A stretch of 64,000 nt of DNA. Origin: Halarcobacter ebronensis. GTDB taxonomy: Bacteria; Campylobacterota; Campylobacteria; Campylobacterales; Arcobacteraceae. Every line of letters begins with the position of its first letter. Position 1 is the first letter of the stretch. The DNA is taken from positions 496,001 through 560,000 of the forward strand of contig NZ_CP053836.1 in assembly GCF_013201825.1 (NCBI RefSeq), in the 5' to 3' direction. Under the pieces are notes generated by a model, which saw only the letters and a list, made by a program, of their open reading frames with translations, was not told the origin of the DNA and made no database searches. The translations under genes and the position numbers were made by a program. Positions 25,439 through 32,821 of the stretch are shown here, in pieces.

Positions 25439-25494
25439 GATAGTTTTCTAAATTTAAAACTATCTTTATATAGTTATATATTTAAAAGTAAAAA

Positions 25495-25761
25495 TTATTT
25501 GCTTTTTGTCATTTCATTATGATTCATCATATTATGATTTGTCATTTCATTTTGATTTTTCATCTCATTATGATTCATTCCCTCATGATTCATATTACCA
25601 TTATTCATCATTTGAGTATTATCCATTTTGTTGTTATTCATCATCTTTTCATGATTCATTCCACTATGATTCATTCCTTCATGCTTCATGCTATTTTCAT
25701 TTGCAAAAGCAACTCCTACTAATAGTGATGTTGTTAATGCGATTGATGTAATCTTTTTCAT
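25495..25761 (-). CDS. Met/His/Asn-rich exported peptide, probable copper or silver binder
   Basis: 88 residues with a signal peptide (MKKITSIALTTSLLVGVAFA) and an AAAGGAGAAG ribosome site. The mature part of about 67 residues is built of short repeats such as GMNHSGMNHEKMM, with about 15 Met, many Asn and His, and no Cys. Met/His clusters of this kind bind Cu(I) or Ag(I) in the oxidising periplasm. No copper pump or oxidase lies beside it. The function is inferred from composition only. Several antisense frames here are artefacts of the same low-complexity DNA. Confidence 0.7.
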   Translation of the reverse strand: MKKITSIALTTSLLVGVAFANENSMKHEGMNHSGMNHEKMMNNNKMDNTQMMNNGNMNHEGMNHNEMKNQNEMTNHNMMNHNEMTKSK

Positions 25762-25895
25762 TCTTCTCCTTTAAATAAATTTGCTTAATTATAAAAATTA
25801 AATATGGAAGGAATATGGAAATTGTCTTAATTAATAAAATTAATTTATTTTAAGTATTAAAATTCAATTTTTCTTTTTTATTTGTATATTTAGTG

Positions 25896-26010
25896 ATAAG
25901 CTAAACAAAAAGTATTATTATGGAATGCGAATCCCTTTTTGTGAACAGTAACAAAGATGAGATAAAAGAGATTTTTGATAATACAAAAACAATCGCAATT
26001 ATTGGACTAT
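25896..26010 (+). repeat. Left copy of a ~115-bp imperfect direct repeat (truncated CoA-binding gene start)
   Basis: This matches 30860-30978, the promoter-proximal region and first 30 codons of the intact CoA-binding-protein gene. Within the 91 coding bases (25920-26010 against 30888-30978) I count 8 differences by eye, about 91% identity. The upstream 24 bases are also alignable with small gaps. In this copy the TATAAT of the intact gene reads as non-promoter sequence. Identity stops after GGACTAT, at the stop codon of the convergent response-regulator gene. Confidence 0.9.
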
Positions 26011-26039
26011 TTTATCTCTATTTTGTATCCAACTCCTGA
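25920..26039 (+). pseudogene. Truncated copy of the CoA-binding protein gene (first 30 codons)
   Basis: The frame from ATG 25920 reads MECESLFVNSNKDEIKEIFD and continues as the CoA-binding protein at 30888 through codon 30 (IAIIGL). It then runs into unrelated sequence and stops at 26039. The Rossmann-like CoA-binding domain is lost, so it cannot be functional. It is the scar left by the event that placed the 26.0-30.9 kb segment here. Confidence 0.88.
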
Positions 26040-26762
26040 GTGTCTAGTAATGAGGGCTTTATCAACTTTTTGTCTTAATCTAAATAGCACATTTCTTAGT
26101 GCACCTTCTCCCACTAAGTCTCCATTATATAAGTAATCTTCTATGGCTTCACTACTTACAATGGCATTCTCATTATCAAGCAAAATATCAAAAAGCATAA
26201 TCTCTTTTTTATTTAGTGGAATCTCTTTTTTTTCTAAAAATAGTCTGTTCTCTTCTCTATCAAAGAGATAACCAAACTTTAAAGTACAAAATCTTTTTTT
26301 TATATATCTTTTTTCACTCTCCTCTAGATTTTTTTCTAAAGCCATAAAGTGTTTTTGATTTGTCTCTAATTCTTTTTCAAGTTTTTGCTTAGCTGAAAAT
26401 TTTGTTAATGCAAGTTCAACTACAGCCTTTAGTTCAGCATCTTTAAAGGGTTTTATAATATATCCATATGGTTCATGTTTTATGGCTCTCTCTATTGTAT
26501 GGTTTTTATCATTTGCAGTTAAAAAGATAAATGGTATATTGTATTTTTGTGAAATAGTGTCACTTAAACTTATACCATCTTCACCTTTTTTCAATGTTAT
26601 ATCTAAAATGGCTAAATCACATCGATTTTGCTCCAATAAAGATAAAGCTTTTTTGATACTACTAGCAATACCAATTACATTATACCTAAAGGCTTCAAGC
26701 GCCTCTTTTATATCCATTGCTGTTACAATTTCATCTTCCACTATTAAAATACTTTTTTTCAT
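26007..26762 (-). CDS. Response regulator with OmpR-type winged helix
   Basis: 251 residues. The receiver domain has Asp54 (LAILDITLKKGEDG) as phosphoacceptor, the acidic pair in VEDE and the Lys of IIKPFKD. A short coiled linker (residues 125-150) leads to a DNA-binding winged helix (NKKEIMLFDILLDNENAIVS, then RNVLFRLRQKVDKALITRHS). Its last base pairs, including the TAG stop, lie in the left repeat, so the gene ends exactly at the insertion boundary. It overlaps the kinase gene by one base. It is divergent from the Tat/flavoprotein/cytochrome genes, which it probably controls. Confidence 0.9.
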   Translation of the reverse strand: MKKSILIVEDEIVTAMDIKEALEAFRYNVIGIASSIKKALSLLEQNRCDLAILDITLKKGEDGISLSDTISQKYNIPFIFLTANDKNHTIERAIKHEPYGYIIKPFKDAELKAVVELALTKFSAKQKLEKELETNQKHFMALEKNLEESEKRYIKKRFCTLKFGYLFDREENRLFLEKKEIPLNKKEIMLFDILLDNENAIVSSEAIEDYLYNGDLVGEGALRNVLFRLRQKVDKALITRHSGVGYKIEIK

Positions 26763-28042
26763 TAATTCTCTTCAGCTCTAAGTTTGTAGGTAATTTCACA
26801 GTAAAAGCCATTTTTTGTATCTAATTTTAGTTCACCTTCTAGTTGAAGTTCTGCAATAGATTCAATTAGTTGCCATCCCAAAGAGTTGCTATTTTTTAAA
26901 TCCTCTTTACTACAACCTTTACCTGTATCTTTCAATCCAAAATTAATCTCATCACCATTTTTATGAATAAAAATATCTATCTCTCCCTCTTTTTTCTCTT
27001 TAAAAGCGTGTTTGATTGAGTTTAGTAGTAGTTCATGGATAACTAAGGCTGTTAAAACCGAGTAATTTATTCCTAAATTTACATCTTTTGAAACATCAAT
27101 ATTTATTTTTATATTATCGCCTAGATTATAGATATCTTTCATAGCAAGACAAAGTTTTTCAAGGTATTGATTCATATCAATTTCACTTAAATTATCACCT
27201 TGGTATAAAATCTCATGTACTAAAGCAATTGCATAGATTCTACTTCTTGTTTTGTCAAGTTGACTGTTTATATTGCTATCTTTTTCTCTTCTTTTTTGCA
27301 TTGAAAGTAGTGAAGAGAGAACTTGAAGATTGTTTTTTACCCGATGGTGAATCTCTTTTATTAAAATCTCTTTCTCTTTTAAAGAGGTAGTTATTATATT
27401 CTCTTTTCTTTTTTGTTCTGTAATATCCCTTGCAAAAGCACAAACATACTCTTCATCTTCATTTACTAAAAAGTAGTTTGCAGCTATAAAACAAGGAAAG
27501 GTTATTCCATCTTTTGTGGTTAGTTGAGACTCAAAATAGTTATACTGTTTTTTCTTTTGAATAATGGTTTTTTCTATCTCATCAAATCTTTTATCTATCT
27601 TGGAGATATGCATGTCAAGTAGTTCAACTTTTTTATACCCAAGCATTTTGCATAGTCTATTATTTACATATACAATATTCCCATCAAATTTAAACCAATA
27701 TATGGCATCTGCAGTATTATCAAGTACAAAGTTTATAAGCTTTAGATTCTCACTCTCCTGTTTTTGAAAAAGTATTAGTTTCTCTTTTGCCTCTTTTTCT
27801 ATTTTTGCAATACTTCTTAAAAAGAAGTATAAAAATATACTTGCAACTATAAAAAAAGTGATTCCTAAAAGTAGTGGAAGTTTAGTGCCCTCAAATTTAT
27901 TTGTATGCTGGATTATAAACATTGATACACTATTTACAAGATAGATCCCAAATATACCTATTAATAAAAAAGATAGTGAATATAATTTTGCTTTTTTCTC
28001 ATTTGGAATTTTAGCAATAATATTTAGGATTTCATTGAACAT
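26762..28042 (-). CDS. Membrane sensor histidine kinase with PAS domain (HisKA_2 type)
   Basis: 426 residues. Two membrane helices near residues 22-45 and 57-78 leave only a very short periplasmic loop, so the signal is probably cytoplasmic or within the membrane. A PAS domain with PAC segment (about 95-215) precedes the dimerisation/phosphoacceptor helix KEIHHRVKNNLQVLSSLLSM, characteristic of HisKA_2 kinases. The ATPase domain has the N-box LLLNSIKHAFKE and a Gly-rich lid (GKGCSKEDL). It feeds the regulator encoded downstream (1-bp overlap). The PAS domain is the likely sensor of the substrate, such as a phenol, or of redox state. Confidence 0.9.
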   Translation of the reverse strand: MFNEILNIIAKIPNEKKAKLYSLSFLLIGIFGIYLVNSVSMFIIQHTNKFEGTKLPLLLGITFFIVASIFLYFFLRSIAKIEKEAKEKLILFQKQESENLKLINFVLDNTADAIYWFKFDGNIVYVNNRLCKMLGYKKVELLDMHISKIDKRFDEIEKTIIQKKKQYNYFESQLTTKDGITFPCFIAANYFLVNEDEEYVCAFARDITEQKRKENIITTSLKEKEILIKEIHHRVKNNLQVLSSLLSMQKRREKDSNINSQLDKTRSRIYAIALVHEILYQGDNLSEIDMNQYLEKLCLAMKDIYNLGDNIKINIDVSKDVNLGINYSVLTALVIHELLLNSIKHAFKEKKEGEIDIFIHKNGDEINFGLKDTGKGCSKEDLKNSNSLGWQLIESIAELQLEGELKLDTKNGFYCEITYKLRAEEN

Positions 28043-28090
28043 TAGATTCCTCTACATATCTATAAGAATAGAAAAGATTATATAACTTTT

Positions 28091-28120
28091 CATATTAGAT
28101 ACAAAATAAATCTTAATATG
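28091..28120. promoter_or_regulatory. Imperfect inverted repeat in the kinase / Tat-gene divergent promoter
   Basis: CATATTAGAT (28091-28100) and ATCTTAATATG (28110-28120) are inverted copies with one inserted base, 9 bp apart, in the 139-bp gap between the divergent kinase and Tat-signal genes. It is a natural place for the local response regulator to bind. The role is inferred. Confidence 0.4.
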
Positions 28121-28181
28121 AGAGTTTTTTGAGATTTTTTTCATTTACAATTTTACTATCGATAAAAAGAAAGGAGACAAG

Positions 28182-28787
28182 ATGAACAATATTTCTAGAC
28201 GTTCTTTTATAAAAAGTACGAGTTTAGGAATGACTATTTTTGCTACACAAGCTTTCTCACAACCTTTATCGACACTAATATTTGATAACAAAAAACAAAA
28301 CATAATTGATTTGGACTATGTGATTTATGATAAAGGTGTTAAAAGAAGTGAAGAGTTTGCCAAAAAAATGGCAGCACTGGGAACTAAAACCTATGAGATT
28401 AATGGTGATATTTCCAATCTGTGGAGTGAAGTCATAAGACCTACTTGGGGTATAAAAAATGATACTGCAATTGCAGGATTGACTACTTATGAGACTCTGT
28501 TTGTTTTACAAAAAGTTGCTTTTGATAGGGGAATGGTTCTATATTTTAATGCGGAACATAAAATTGATGGAAAAGATGCAATACATAATATTAAAACTAC
28601 AAAAAATCAATTTGCAAAAATCAAAAACAACTTAGGAAAATATAGCTGGACAGAGACTTTGGCTTTAAATATGAATAGTTATCCATATGAAAAAGCACAA
28701 ATAAGAAGTGATTTAAAAAGTGTGGCAGATAGCAGTGCCAATAAAGAGATTTTATACTCTTGGATAATTGCACCAAGAGTTAGTTAA
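28182..28787 (+). CDS. Tat-signal protein of unknown function, flavocytochrome operon
   Basis: 201 residues. The N-terminus SRRSFIKSTSLGMTIFATQA is a twin-arginine signal with a hydrophobic core, so the protein is exported folded. The mature part has no cofactor motif or cysteines that I can see. It is the first gene of the operon (AAAGGAG site), 10 bp before the flavoprotein. That flavoprotein has no signal peptide, although its relatives act in the periplasm, so this protein could carry it across by hitchhiking. The Pseudomonas 4-cresol operon also has an extra gene of unknown role (pchX). Whether the two are related cannot be told here. Confidence 0.75.
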   Translation: MNNISRRSFIKSTSLGMTIFATQAFSQPLSTLIFDNKKQNIIDLDYVIYDKGVKRSEEFAKKMAALGTKTYEINGDISNLWSEVIRPTWGIKNDTAIAGLTTYETLFVLQKVAFDRGMVLYFNAEHKIDGKDAIHNIKTTKNQFAKIKNNLGKYSWTETLALNMNSYPYEKAQIRSDLKSVADSSANKEILYSWIIAPRVS

Positions 28788-28797
28788 AGGAGAAGAT

Positions 28798-30447
28798 ATG
28801 TCAAAAAATGAAGATACTATGATATTACCAAATGGAGTTAATAAAAAGGATTTTTTAGCAGCAATTAAAGAGTTTGAAAAAATTGTTGGTAAAAAATGGG
28901 TATTTAAATCAAAAGAAGATGTTTATTTATATAGGGATGCTTACTCTCCATATTGGGATGAACCAGAGGAACCAATCCCTTCTCTTGCAGTTGCTCCAAA
29001 AAGTACTGAAGAGGTACAAGAGATAGTAAAAGTTGCAAATCAATATAAAATTCCTATTTTCCCTATATCAACAGGTAAAAACTTAGGATATGGTTCATCA
29101 GCTCCAAATAATAGGGGTGATGTAGTTGTGGATTTAAAAAGAATGAACAAAATTATTGAGGTAAATGATAAAAGAAATTACTGTATCTTAGAGCCAGGGG
29201 TTTCATATTTTGACCTTTATAACTATATTGAAGAGAATAATCTAAATGTTATGATGGATATACCAGATCCAGGTTGGGGAAGTCCCGTTGGAAACTCACT
29301 TGACCATGGATGGGGTTATTTACATGGACAATTTAGGGATCACTTTGGAAATCACTGCGGTATGGAGGTAGTACTTCCAAATGGTGAACTAATGAGAACT
29401 GCAATGGGAGCTCTACCAGGAGCAAAAACCTTCGCAGAGAATAAATATGGGTATGGACCATATGTGGATGGGCTTTTTTCTCAATCAAATTTTGGGATTG
29501 TAACAAAAATGGGATTTTGGATGATGCCAAAACCTGAGCACTATACTTTAGCTGCTATTACAGTTCCAAGAAGAGATGATTTAATCCCTTTAGTGGAGAT
29601 TTTAAACTATTTGGAGGACTCCTCTATTGTTGGATGGCCTTTGTATAGAAGTCCATTAAATCCAGAGTATGGTAAACCTATGAATCCTGAATTAAAATCA
29701 TATTTAACTTCTAAAAATGGAAAACCAGATATTGAAAAAATTCAAGATTATGCATTAAGAAATGAAATTCCATATTGGAGAATTGATGTTTCTTTATATG
29801 GTACAAAAGATGCAGTCGCTGCAAATATAAACTATATGAAAGAGAGATTTTCAAAAGCAATCAAGGGCTCAAAAGTCGAAGTTACTGAGGATTATGACCT
29901 ACCATTGACAGAAGAGCAAAAAAAATCTTTGAAACATAAAGTAACTTTAGGTATTCCAAACTTAGAGATTTTCTGGTTAAGTACTAGAGGGGAAGAGCTT
30001 GGTCCAAAAGATGGCCATGTTTGGTTCTCACCTATTATTCCAAGGGATGGTAAAGAGCTTTTAAAATGTCAAGAGATTTATATTGATACTTTCTATGAAC
30101 TTGGAATGGAGTCTATGATTACACCATTCTCACACCCAAGAACTTGGATGTATAGAGCCTTTTGTTTTATGATTGGATTTGCTAACTCTAGAGAAGATAA
30201 AGAGATAAATGAAAAAATGAGAAAAGTTTATACAACTATGGTAAAAGTTGCTGCTAAACATGGTTGGGGAGATTATAGAGCTGCACCACCATTCCAAGAT
30301 ATTGTATCAGGAGTTTATAACTTCAATGACAATATTCTAAAAAGATTTGCAGAACAATTAAAAGATACCATAGATCCAAATGGTATTATTGCTCCAGGTA
30401 GAGGAGGAATTTGGCCAAAAAGATTAAGAGGAGATAAAAATGCTTAG
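28798..30447 (+). CDS. Vanillyl-alcohol-oxidase family flavoprotein (4-cresol dehydrogenase type)
   Basis: 549 residues from ATG 28798 (AAAGGAGAAG site). The FAD-binding PCMH domain covers about 45-230 (SLAVAPKSTEEVQEIV, GKNLGYGSSAPN, DIPDPGWGSPVGNSLDHGWG). The substrate domain follows, with the C-terminal signature DPNGIIAPGRGGIWP. His407 in GHVWFSP is where this family attaches FAD covalently (His in vanillyl-alcohol oxidase, Tyr in 4-cresol dehydrogenase). Tyr493-Arg494 (GDYRAA) correspond by position to the phenolate-binding Tyr-Arg pair. It should oxidise a para-alkylphenol or 4-hydroxybenzyl alcohol, passing electrons to the cytochrome encoded next (8-bp overlap). No signal peptide is visible. 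Confidence 0.88.
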   Translation: MSKNEDTMILPNGVNKKDFLAAIKEFEKIVGKKWVFKSKEDVYLYRDAYSPYWDEPEEPIPSLAVAPKSTEEVQEIVKVANQYKIPIFPISTGKNLGYGSSAPNNRGDVVVDLKRMNKIIEVNDKRNYCILEPGVSYFDLYNYIEENNLNVMMDIPDPGWGSPVGNSLDHGWGYLHGQFRDHFGNHCGMEVVLPNGELMRTAMGALPGAKTFAENKYGYGPYVDGLFSQSNFGIVTKMGFWMMPKPEHYTLAAITVPRRDDLIPLVEILNYLEDSSIVGWPLYRSPLNPEYGKPMNPELKSYLTSKNGKPDIEKIQDYALRNEIPYWRIDVSLYGTKDAVAANINYMKERFSKAIKGSKVEVTEDYDLPLTEEQKKSLKHKVTLGIPNLEIFWLSTRGEELGPKDGHVWFSPIIPRDGKELLKCQEIYIDTFYELGMESMITPFSHPRTWMYRAFCFMIGFANSREDKEINEKMRKVYTTMVKVAAKHGWGDYRAAPPFQDIVSGVYNFNDNILKRFAEQLKDTIDPNGIIAPGRGGIWPKRLRGDKNA

Positions 30448-30778
30448 AAATATATATAAAATATTATTACTGCTACTCCTTGCTTCTGCAACAGTGTATG
30501 CAAGTGATTCAAGTAAATTTGACCAAGGTAAAAAAGTATTTGATAAATGGTGTATCCATTGCCATGGAGTGGGAATGCCTGCAACAGACGCACTAAAAAT
30601 AGTATATAAAGGAACAGATATTTCTCCTGTACTAGAAGAAAGAAAAGAGTTAGATGCAGATTTTGTAAAATATATAGTTAGAAATGGAAAATTTAGTATG
30701 CCATTTTTTAGAAAAACTGAAATTAATGATGAGCAACTAAACAGTTTAGCTCTATATCTCTCTACAAAAAACAAATAA
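30440..30778 (+). CDS. c-type cytochrome, probable electron-accepting subunit of the flavoprotein
   Basis: 112 residues. A Sec signal peptide (MLRNIYKILLLLLLASATVY, ending in A) precedes a small class I cytochrome c with one haem motif Cys-Ile-His-Cys-His (KWCIHCHGVGMP). A Met in FSMPFF is the likely sixth ligand. The size matches the cytochrome subunit of 4-cresol dehydrogenase. It starts 8 bp inside the flavoprotein gene, so equal amounts are expected, and it is followed by a terminator. It would take electrons from FAD and give them to the respiratory chain from the periplasm. Confidence 0.9.
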   Translation: MLRNIYKILLLLLLASATVYASDSSKFDQGKKVFDKWCIHCHGVGMPATDALKIVYKGTDISPVLEERKELDADFVKYIVRNGKFSMPFFRKTEINDEQLNSLALYLSTKNK

Positions 30779-30799
30779 AAATAACCAAAACTTTAGAAG

Positions 30800-30831
30800 A
30801 CTTTCTAGGCAAAAATGCTTAGAAAGTTTTT
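30800..30831 (+). terminator. Intrinsic terminator of the flavocytochrome operon
   Basis: ACTTTCTAGGC - AAAAAT - GCTTAGAAAGT followed by TTTTT. An 11-bp stem with one G-T pair. Confidence 0.85.
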
Positions 30832-30855
30832 ATAAATATTATTATTCAAATCTGC

Positions 30856-30861
30856 TATAAT
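30856..30861 (+). promoter_or_regulatory. -10 element of the CoA-binding protein gene
   Basis: TATAAT 26 bases before the ATG, with AAAAAGG as ribosome site between. The duplicated left copy at 25.9 kb lacks this hexamer. Confidence 0.55.
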
Positions 30862-30978
30862 AAGCATAAAAATAAAAAAGGATTATTATGGAGTGCGAAT
30901 TTCCTTCTGTAAACAGTAACAAAGATGAGATAAAAGAGATTTTTGATAATACAAAAACAATTGCTATTATTGGACTAT
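30860..30978 (+). repeat. Right copy of the ~115-bp direct repeat
   Basis: The leader and first 30 codons of the intact CoA-binding-protein gene; partner of 25896-26010. The two copies are in the same orientation and bracket the two-component and flavocytochrome genes. Confidence 0.9.
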
Positions 30979-31319
30979 CTCCCGATGAAAGCAAAGCAAG
31001 TAATATGGTAGGAAAATATCTTAAAAATGCAGGATTTAAAATTGTTCCTGTTTATCCTAAAGAGGATCAAATCTTAGGAGAAAAAGTCTATAGAAGTTTA
31101 GATGAAATTCCTTTTAAAGTTGATATGGTGGATATTTTTAGAAAACCTGATGTTATAGGCTTAGTTGTTGATGCTGCAATAAAAAGAGGTGATGTGGATA
31201 CAATCTGGACACAACTTGGATTAGTAAATAATGATGCAGCAAAAAAAGCAATTGAAGCAGGCATGAAAGTAGTACAAAATAAGTGTACTAAAATAGAACA
31301 TAGAGAGATTTTTGTTTAA
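30888..31319 (+). CDS. CoA-binding domain protein (YccU-like)
   Basis: 143 residues, nearly all one Rossmann-type CoA-binding domain. Features are KTIAIIGLSPDESKASNMVG near residues 24-43, the strand FKIVPVYPKEDQILGEKVYR, and a C-terminal QNKCTKIEH. Proteins of this size are widespread, resemble the CoA-binding half of succinyl-CoA synthetase, and have no settled function. The gene is intact, with its own promoter and a two-way terminator. Its first 30 codons are duplicated 5 kb upstream, marking it as the target site of the accessory segment. Confidence 0.9.
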   Translation: MECEFPSVNSNKDEIKEIFDNTKTIAIIGLSPDESKASNMVGKYLKNAGFKIVPVYPKEDQILGEKVYRSLDEIPFKVDMVDIFRKPDVIGLVVDAAIKRGDVDTIWTQLGLVNNDAAKKAIEAGMKVVQNKCTKIEHREIFV

Positions 31320-31357: not shown

Positions 31358-32821
31358 TTAAGAGGCATGGACACTTTTTATAATTTTTGCATTTACAGCA
31401 TCTTTCCCTTTAAAATTCTTTTCATTTGCATCTTTTAAAATAAGCTTCGCTATCTCATCTGTTTGCATTGCAATATCATGGGTTTGTGAAGCAATTGTTG
31501 CATTTTGTTGTGTTTGTTGATCAAGATTATTAATTGCATCATTTATTTGAACAATTCCTGATTGTTGCTCTTTTGAAGCATATTCTACATTTGATATTAA
31601 TTCAATAGTTTTAGAAATATTTTCTGTTAAACCAATATAACCTTTAATCATTCTATCAGAGATAACTTTTCCATTATTTGCTTTTGATGTAGCATTTTCA
31701 ACTAAGTTTTTAATCTCCTTTGCTGCTTCAGCAGATCTACTTGCAAGATTTCTAACCTCTTGTGCAACAACAGCAAATCCTCTTCCAGCCTCTCCTGCAG
31801 TTGCTGCTTCAACAGCTGCATTAAGTGAAAGAATATTTGTTTGAAATGCAATTTTGTCAATTACTGTAATTGCCTCATTTATTGCATTTACTTCATCATC
31901 AATATCATTCATAGCTTTTGTAGTTTGTTGTGCTAACTCTTTTCCTTCATTTGCTGAAGCTGTTACTTCGTTTGCAAATTCTGCCATTTTAATAATATTT
32001 TGCGTATTTGATGAAATATTACTTGTAATCTCTTCAAGTGCAGCAGCTGTCTCTTCTAATGATGCAGCAGCTTCATTAGAGTTTTGATTTAAAATATCTA
32101 CATTTTGAAGCAGTACATTTGAACTATCATCTAAAGTTAGCCCGTTAGCTTTATTTTCAACAAGCATATCATTTACAACATTTGCAAGGTTATTTAAACC
32201 AATAGAGGTTTCACCTTCATCATCAGATATTCTATATGAAAAATCTAATGATTGGAAAGAGTTTAAAGCTTCTGATACTTTGTTTAGATCCCCTGCAACC
32301 TTTGTAGAAACTATATGAAACAGTTCATTTATTCCATTTTTTAGTTCTTCAATTGATTCATTAGTTGTTGTCTCTTTTATCTCTTGATTCAAAATTCCTG
32401 TTTTTGCAATATTTATAGATTTTTTTACTGAATCAATTACTTTTTTTGAATCGGTTATATCCTGAGCAAATTTTACAACTCTAATAACCTTCCCTTTATT
32501 ATCTTTTACTGGTGTGTAAGATGCTTGTATCCATATTGAACTACCATCTTTTCTAAATCTTTCAAATTCATTAATTTGAGAGACTCCTTTTGCTAAATCT
32601 TCCCAAAATTTTGAATACTCCAGTGACTTAATATAATTTTTATCACAAAATAATCTATGGTGCTGCCCTACAATCTCTTTTAATGTATATCCTAAAGCAT
32701 CTAAAAAATTTTTATTTGCATGTAATATTGTTCCATCAGGTTTAAAAGAGATTATTGCAAAGTTTTCTTCCATTGCAGATAATCTTCCTGCTTGTTCTTC
32801 ATTTTTACCAAAACCAAACAT
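31358..32821 (-). CDS. Soluble PAS-domain methyl-accepting chemotaxis protein
   Basis: 487 residues with no membrane helix. A PAS domain with PAC segment is at about residues 10-130 ([20 protein letters not shown], then [20 protein letters not shown]). A helical stretch follows, then the signalling domain with the conserved hairpin tip [19 protein letters not shown]. The layout resembles cytoplasmic energy or redox receptors (Aer-like or BdlA-like, with one PAS). It should report an internal redox or oxygen signal to CheA/CheW. The C-terminus lacks an obvious CheR/CheB pentapeptide. Its neighbours are unrelated. It is convergent with the CoA-binding gene. Confidence 0.93.

Follow-up and report, generated by a model that had tools for sequence, protein, structure and literature searches.

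Does the direct repeat that brackets a 5-kb accessory segment in the genome of Halarcobacter ebronensis mark the arrival of that segment, or did it form afterwards? Within the 64-kb stretch of DNA analysed here (the window), an earlier note had described the start of a CoA-binding gene as occurring twice in the same orientation, and had read this repeat as the product either of an insertion by recombination at a gene start or of a tandem duplication.

The direct repeat of the gene start is real. An ungapped pairwise alignment placed its copies at 25907-26010 and 30875-30978 on the same strand, 4,968 bp apart from start to start, with 95/104 identical bases (91%) and a longest run of identity of 50 bp. 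The nine mismatches lie at positions -6, +6, +14, +15, +17, +20, +24, +75 and +78 counted from the ATG, so that the 13-bp leader has one and the coding part eight, the latter number agreeing with an earlier count by eye. The left edge previously drawn at 25896 proved to be about 11 bp too far out, as similarity upstream of position -13 (25907) does not rise above that of shuffled sequence. On the right, the stop codon of the adjoining regulator gene (CTA on the plus strand, 26007-26009) lies inside the repeat, as had been described, with identity ceasing one base further on. This pair is the sole two-copy direct repeat of at least 60 bp and more than 75% identity in the window, and a search of the whole genome with the repeat fragment itself as query returned no third comparable copy, the matches beyond the pair being two short and weak ones.

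The right copy comprises the leader and start of an intact gene for a CoA-binding protein (CoA_binding_2, Pfam PF13380; 30888..31319, plus strand). The left copy, also on the plus strand, corresponds to the 13-bp leader and first 30 codons of this gene, after which it reads into the end of the regulator gene. Because it stops after 30 codons, is altered at codons 5-7 (F to S, P to L and S to F) and has a changed ribosome-binding site (AAAAGG to AAAAGT), the left copy is predicted to be non-functional. Where the two copies disagree, it is usually the right one that has the bases of the relatives; the most plausible reading of the left copy is a fragment in decay.

The genes described between the copies, namely a two-component system, a Tat-signal protein, a VAO-type flavoprotein and a cytochrome, were all confirmed. 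A response regulator (26007..26762; Pfam Response_reg and Trans_reg_C), the TAG stop of which falls within the repeat, and a PAS/HisKA_2 sensor histidine kinase (26762..28042; Pfam), which resembles PhyK with a score under the curated cut-off, are encoded on the minus strand. These are followed on the plus strand by an open reading frame for a Tat-signal-type protein (28182..28787), by a flavoprotein of the p-cresol methylhydroxylase/vanillyl-alcohol-oxidase family identified with phmmer (28798..30447; the listed open reading frame begins at 28768) and by a small cytochrome c (30440..30778; Pfam Cytochrome_CBB3 and Cytochrom_C). The Tat-signal-type protein has no Pfam or NCBIfam match, and within the family it always co-occurs with the flavoprotein, in an identical set of 5/104 genomes. 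Both full-length similarity (phmmer E 2.6e-170 against the p-cresol methylhydroxylase PDB 9h40) and the adjoining cytochrome c subunit place the flavoprotein in the VAO/PCMH family. The order of a VAO/PCMH flavoprotein followed by a small cytochrome c is likewise that of the p-cresol methylhydroxylase flavocytochrome (PDB 9h40; 1dii), whereas the window adds the Tat-signal-type protein and a divergent two-component system. We found no papers on p-cresol methylhydroxylase or on integration sites in Arcobacter. In the window, no integrase or conjugation gene lies between the repeat copies and no transposase lies between or beside them, in agreement with the earlier observation that no integrase or IS was visible; nor were viral contigs carrying the repeat core sequence found.

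The history of this cassette was read from a comparison set holding one genome per species. True relatives of the flavoprotein and the Tat-signal-type protein mark the cassette in 5/104 family genomes, which bears out the description of the segment as accessory, and in the relatives without the segment that were checked the CoA-binding gene is uninterrupted. Three relatives (G010, G002 and G014) carry the cassette genes in matching order upstream of the same CoA-binding gene and without the left fragment. The end of the cassette directly precedes the CoA-binding gene in G010 and G002; in G014 the two are separated by an IS256 transposase and a chemoreceptor gene, this being the only genome with an IS256 transposase near the cassette. 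Since the five-gene cassette is also found at an unrelated locus in a member of another genus (G027, L102:6495-11252), it must also move between genera. In that genome it adjoins genes resembling molybdopterin-type dehydrogenase. Beside the cassette regulator, G002 has about 800 bp that hold no long reading frame (L090:4129-4930), where G010 has 8 bp. No left copy was detected beside the cassette in G010, G002, G014 or G027.

In a core-gene tree, the window genome forms a clade with G014, G010 and G002 (support 1.000), and the sister pair G008/G003 has no cassette. As the clade is fully supported and its sister pair cassette-free, a single arrival of the cassette in the clade ancestor is the simplest reading. 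Synonymous divergence between the window and these relatives is similar for cassette and core genes (about 0.6-1.6). In the cassette tree, the outgroup sequences join the window branch (0.958), which is compatible with vertical descent; internal support is low, and this weak resolution leaves some room for an independent arrival in the window lineage.

These relatives bear directly on the claim that the repeat marks the insertion of the segment. Relatives carrying the same genes without the left fragment had been named by the earlier note itself as evidence against its reading, and G010, G002 and G014 are such relatives. The age of the left copy points the same way. With the neutral rate taken from synonymous divergence to G010/G002, one would expect 26-38% of its sites to have changed since the split from these species, against 8/90 observed, so that the left copy must be much younger than the species split; under an age equal to that of the clade ancestor, its similarity to the right copy has a P of 4e-5 to 2e-10. 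Furthermore, the 50-bp identical core differs from all sampled species, which implies a single recent lineage as the source of both copies. An older duplication might look young if gene conversion had acted between the copies; the 50-bp identical run has a P of about 0.02 under uniform mutation. Thus, of the earlier interpretation, the accessory nature of the segment and the recombination-prone gene start stand, and the link of the repeat to the insertion finds no support, the cassette occurring in three relatives without the fragment and the left copy being too young. Most likely, the cassette was present first and the left copy arose afterwards as an ordinary scar of recombination.

The left copy belongs to a longer piece of DNA peculiar to this lineage. 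In the window, the AraC and regulator stops are separated by a 568-bp block (25439..26006) made up of a Met-rich gene, intergenic DNA and the left fragment. The same two stop codons are 1 bp apart in G014, where the regulator has a C-terminus of equal length and a stop that aligns with that of the window; in G010/G002 they are separated by unrelated genes. No full-length DNA match to the block was present in the 104 family genomes. The Met-rich gene (25495..25761, minus strand), an open reading frame for a small secreted Met/His-rich repeat protein, was found in the window genome only (1/16 genus members). Its product is an orphan with Met/His/Asn-rich repeats and a weak likeness, under the curated cut-off, to pentapeptide MXKDX repeat proteins. 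Searches for a source of the gene in the genus and of the block in the family gave nothing convincing, the many weak DNA hits looking like chance matches of AT-rich sequence. The block resembles the kind of region that precedes a CoA-binding gene, and the left fragment looks like an event of the window lineage.

We therefore favour, with a probability of roughly one half, a reading in which the repeat is a scar younger than the cassette, produced by one-sided, homology-anchored illegitimate recombination between cassette-bearing and cassette-free alleles. The lineage-specific block is a direct observation, from which we infer the following route. The five-gene cassette would have arrived in the ancestor of the four-species clade, in the variable stretch preceding the CoA-binding gene, and would then have been inherited mainly vertically, a history suggested by the observed synteny and clade. 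In the window lineage, DNA from a close strain, in the order AraC - Met-rich gene - CoA-binding gene, would subsequently have recombined with the cassette-bearing form. One end would have paired in homologous sequence, and the other would have been joined in the same single event at a 4-bp microhomology, CTAT, linking position +91 of the CoA-binding gene to the regulator stop. The intact CoA-binding gene would have kept its place, and the truncated copy would have decayed since. CTAT occurs at the junction in both the CoA-binding gene and the regulator end, although four bases at one junction are weak evidence. Through RecA-dependent recombination, the 50-bp core might still release the cassette on rare occasions as a circle of some 5 kb.

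Events of this kind have been described elsewhere. In homology-facilitated illegitimate recombination, known from Streptococcus, Acinetobacter and Pseudomonas stutzeri and tested in E. coli, one end is a homologous anchor and the other is joined at microhomology, usually of 3-10 bp in the published products (PMC3240628). Displaced remnants are likewise left beside new modules in the T6SS clusters of Vibrio cholerae (PMC5361080), as we propose for the window. Unlike in these systems, the window event is reconstructed from one genome and its relatives, without a donor or parental strain, and no allele with the order AraC - Met-rich gene - CoA-binding gene was seen in the sampled genomes. The genome does encode a ComEC-type competence protein, homologues of which are, however, present in species without known routine transformation too, E. 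coli in our control set among them.

The junction and spacing of the copies would also be yielded by a tandem duplication, the second suggestion of the earlier note, which could still account for the repeat provided that one copy of the segment was then lost. Here illegitimate recombination would have duplicated a 4,968-bp unit running from the regulator end to CoA-binding position +91, in the resulting order cassette - gene start - cassette - intact gene; the left cassette would then have been lost and the Met-rich gene would have arrived. The inner junction fits, with +91 beside the regulator stop, and both copies come from one lineage. However, the cassette is present once only, and loss of one of two cassette copies by ordinary homologous recombination would restore the original arrangement and leave no scar. 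In addition, the second breakpoint would have to fall some 13 bp ahead of the ATG, no trace of the cytochrome-side sequence that should precede the left copy was detected, and two or three events are required, more than under one-sided recombination. We consider this duplication, the main rival of our reading, possible but rather unlikely. A single event would suffice if the CoA-binding gene start had been copied some 5 kb away by local template switching while a break next to the regulator was being repaired; this would give a short copy on the same strand, made in one direction and ending sharply on the right. It would, however, leave unexplained why the fragment and the Met-rich gene share one lineage-specific block, and why similarity stops on the left at about the point where the leaders of the relatives diverge anyway, and template switching of this kind seems to us very improbable.

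The CoA-binding gene was found in 60/60 relatives searched and, in those whose surroundings were compared, a kinase, a regulator and a peptidyl-prolyl isomerase constantly lie downstream. Its upstream neighbour varies widely, being formed by chemoreceptors, cytochrome bd-type genes, sugar genes, an integrase or, directly, a DHH-family gene. With upstream gene content changing in this way among relatives, the CoA-binding gene start is a hotspot, a recombination-prone boundary as had been proposed. On the other side, a chemoreceptor gene (31358-32821) separates the CoA-binding gene from the kinase, an arrangement confined to the window; the nearest relative of this receptor gene in G014 is on the opposite side of the CoA-binding gene, and those in G010 and G002 are at unrelated places. 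About 130 bp upstream of this chemoreceptor gene are common to the window and G014, up to the start of the G014 CoA-binding gene, and were considered as a third CoA-binding remnant. This candidate was rejected as being mainly the receptor's own promoter, because the receptor genes at unrelated loci in G010 and G002 share most of it.

In one further genome, G011, the intact CoA-binding gene is preceded, at a distance of 134 bp, by a tyrosine integrase, and the contig with the left flank (AraC, EptA) carries a displaced gene start, followed by frames of 108 and 258 residues and a VirD4-type coupling protein. These parts belong to a putative integrative conjugative element located at the CoA-binding start codon (L141:5998-7146 and L140:2881-2914, contigs C61 and C75), spread over two contigs of a metagenome assembly, and both of its junctions have ATGGAGTGTGAATT in common at the start codon. 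Besides the window, this is the only family genome with a displaced gene start; pattern hits in G067 and G017 were due to chance, and extra hits in G076 and G083 were second, nearly complete gene starts located where contigs of incomplete assemblies end. The putative G011 element suggests that this gene start can act as an attachment site.

It is on G011 that one might base a reading of the window repeat as the relic of a site-specific island, in which an element inserted at the start of the CoA-binding gene, pushed the native gene start to its far end and brought a replacement with it; the cassette would be leftover cargo, the integrase having been lost. In SXT at prfC and in dusA-specific islands (PMC8409611), a displaced native start likewise lies at the far end and the intact gene at the near end, as in G011, and the window has a displaced start (25907-26010) and a complete gene (30875-31319) in the same orientation. 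In contrast to those islands, the window segment lacks two defining features of such elements, as it contains no integrase and as no displaced start was detected that would bound the cassette as cargo in G010, G002 and G014. Furthermore, the part shared between the window copies is 104 bp, as against a 14-bp core in G011, and it is the right copy, supposedly borne by the element, that has the more native-type leader (likeness to the displaced G011 start of 53, against 35 for the left copy). An island relic is thus an improbable source of the repeat. A wider proposal, that the CoA-binding gene start is an attachment site for integrative conjugative elements of Arcobacter-type bacteria and that the window cassette is a domesticated remnant still lost or exchanged via the repeat copies, we likewise regard as doubtful.

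A direct repeat around an accessory segment, then, need not mark the arrival of that segment, and relatives and divergence must be checked before it is read in this way. For Arcobacter-type bacteria, the start of a conserved CoA-binding gene emerges as a boundary of gene-content turnover, and G011 provides one candidate for a new attachment site of a conjugative element.
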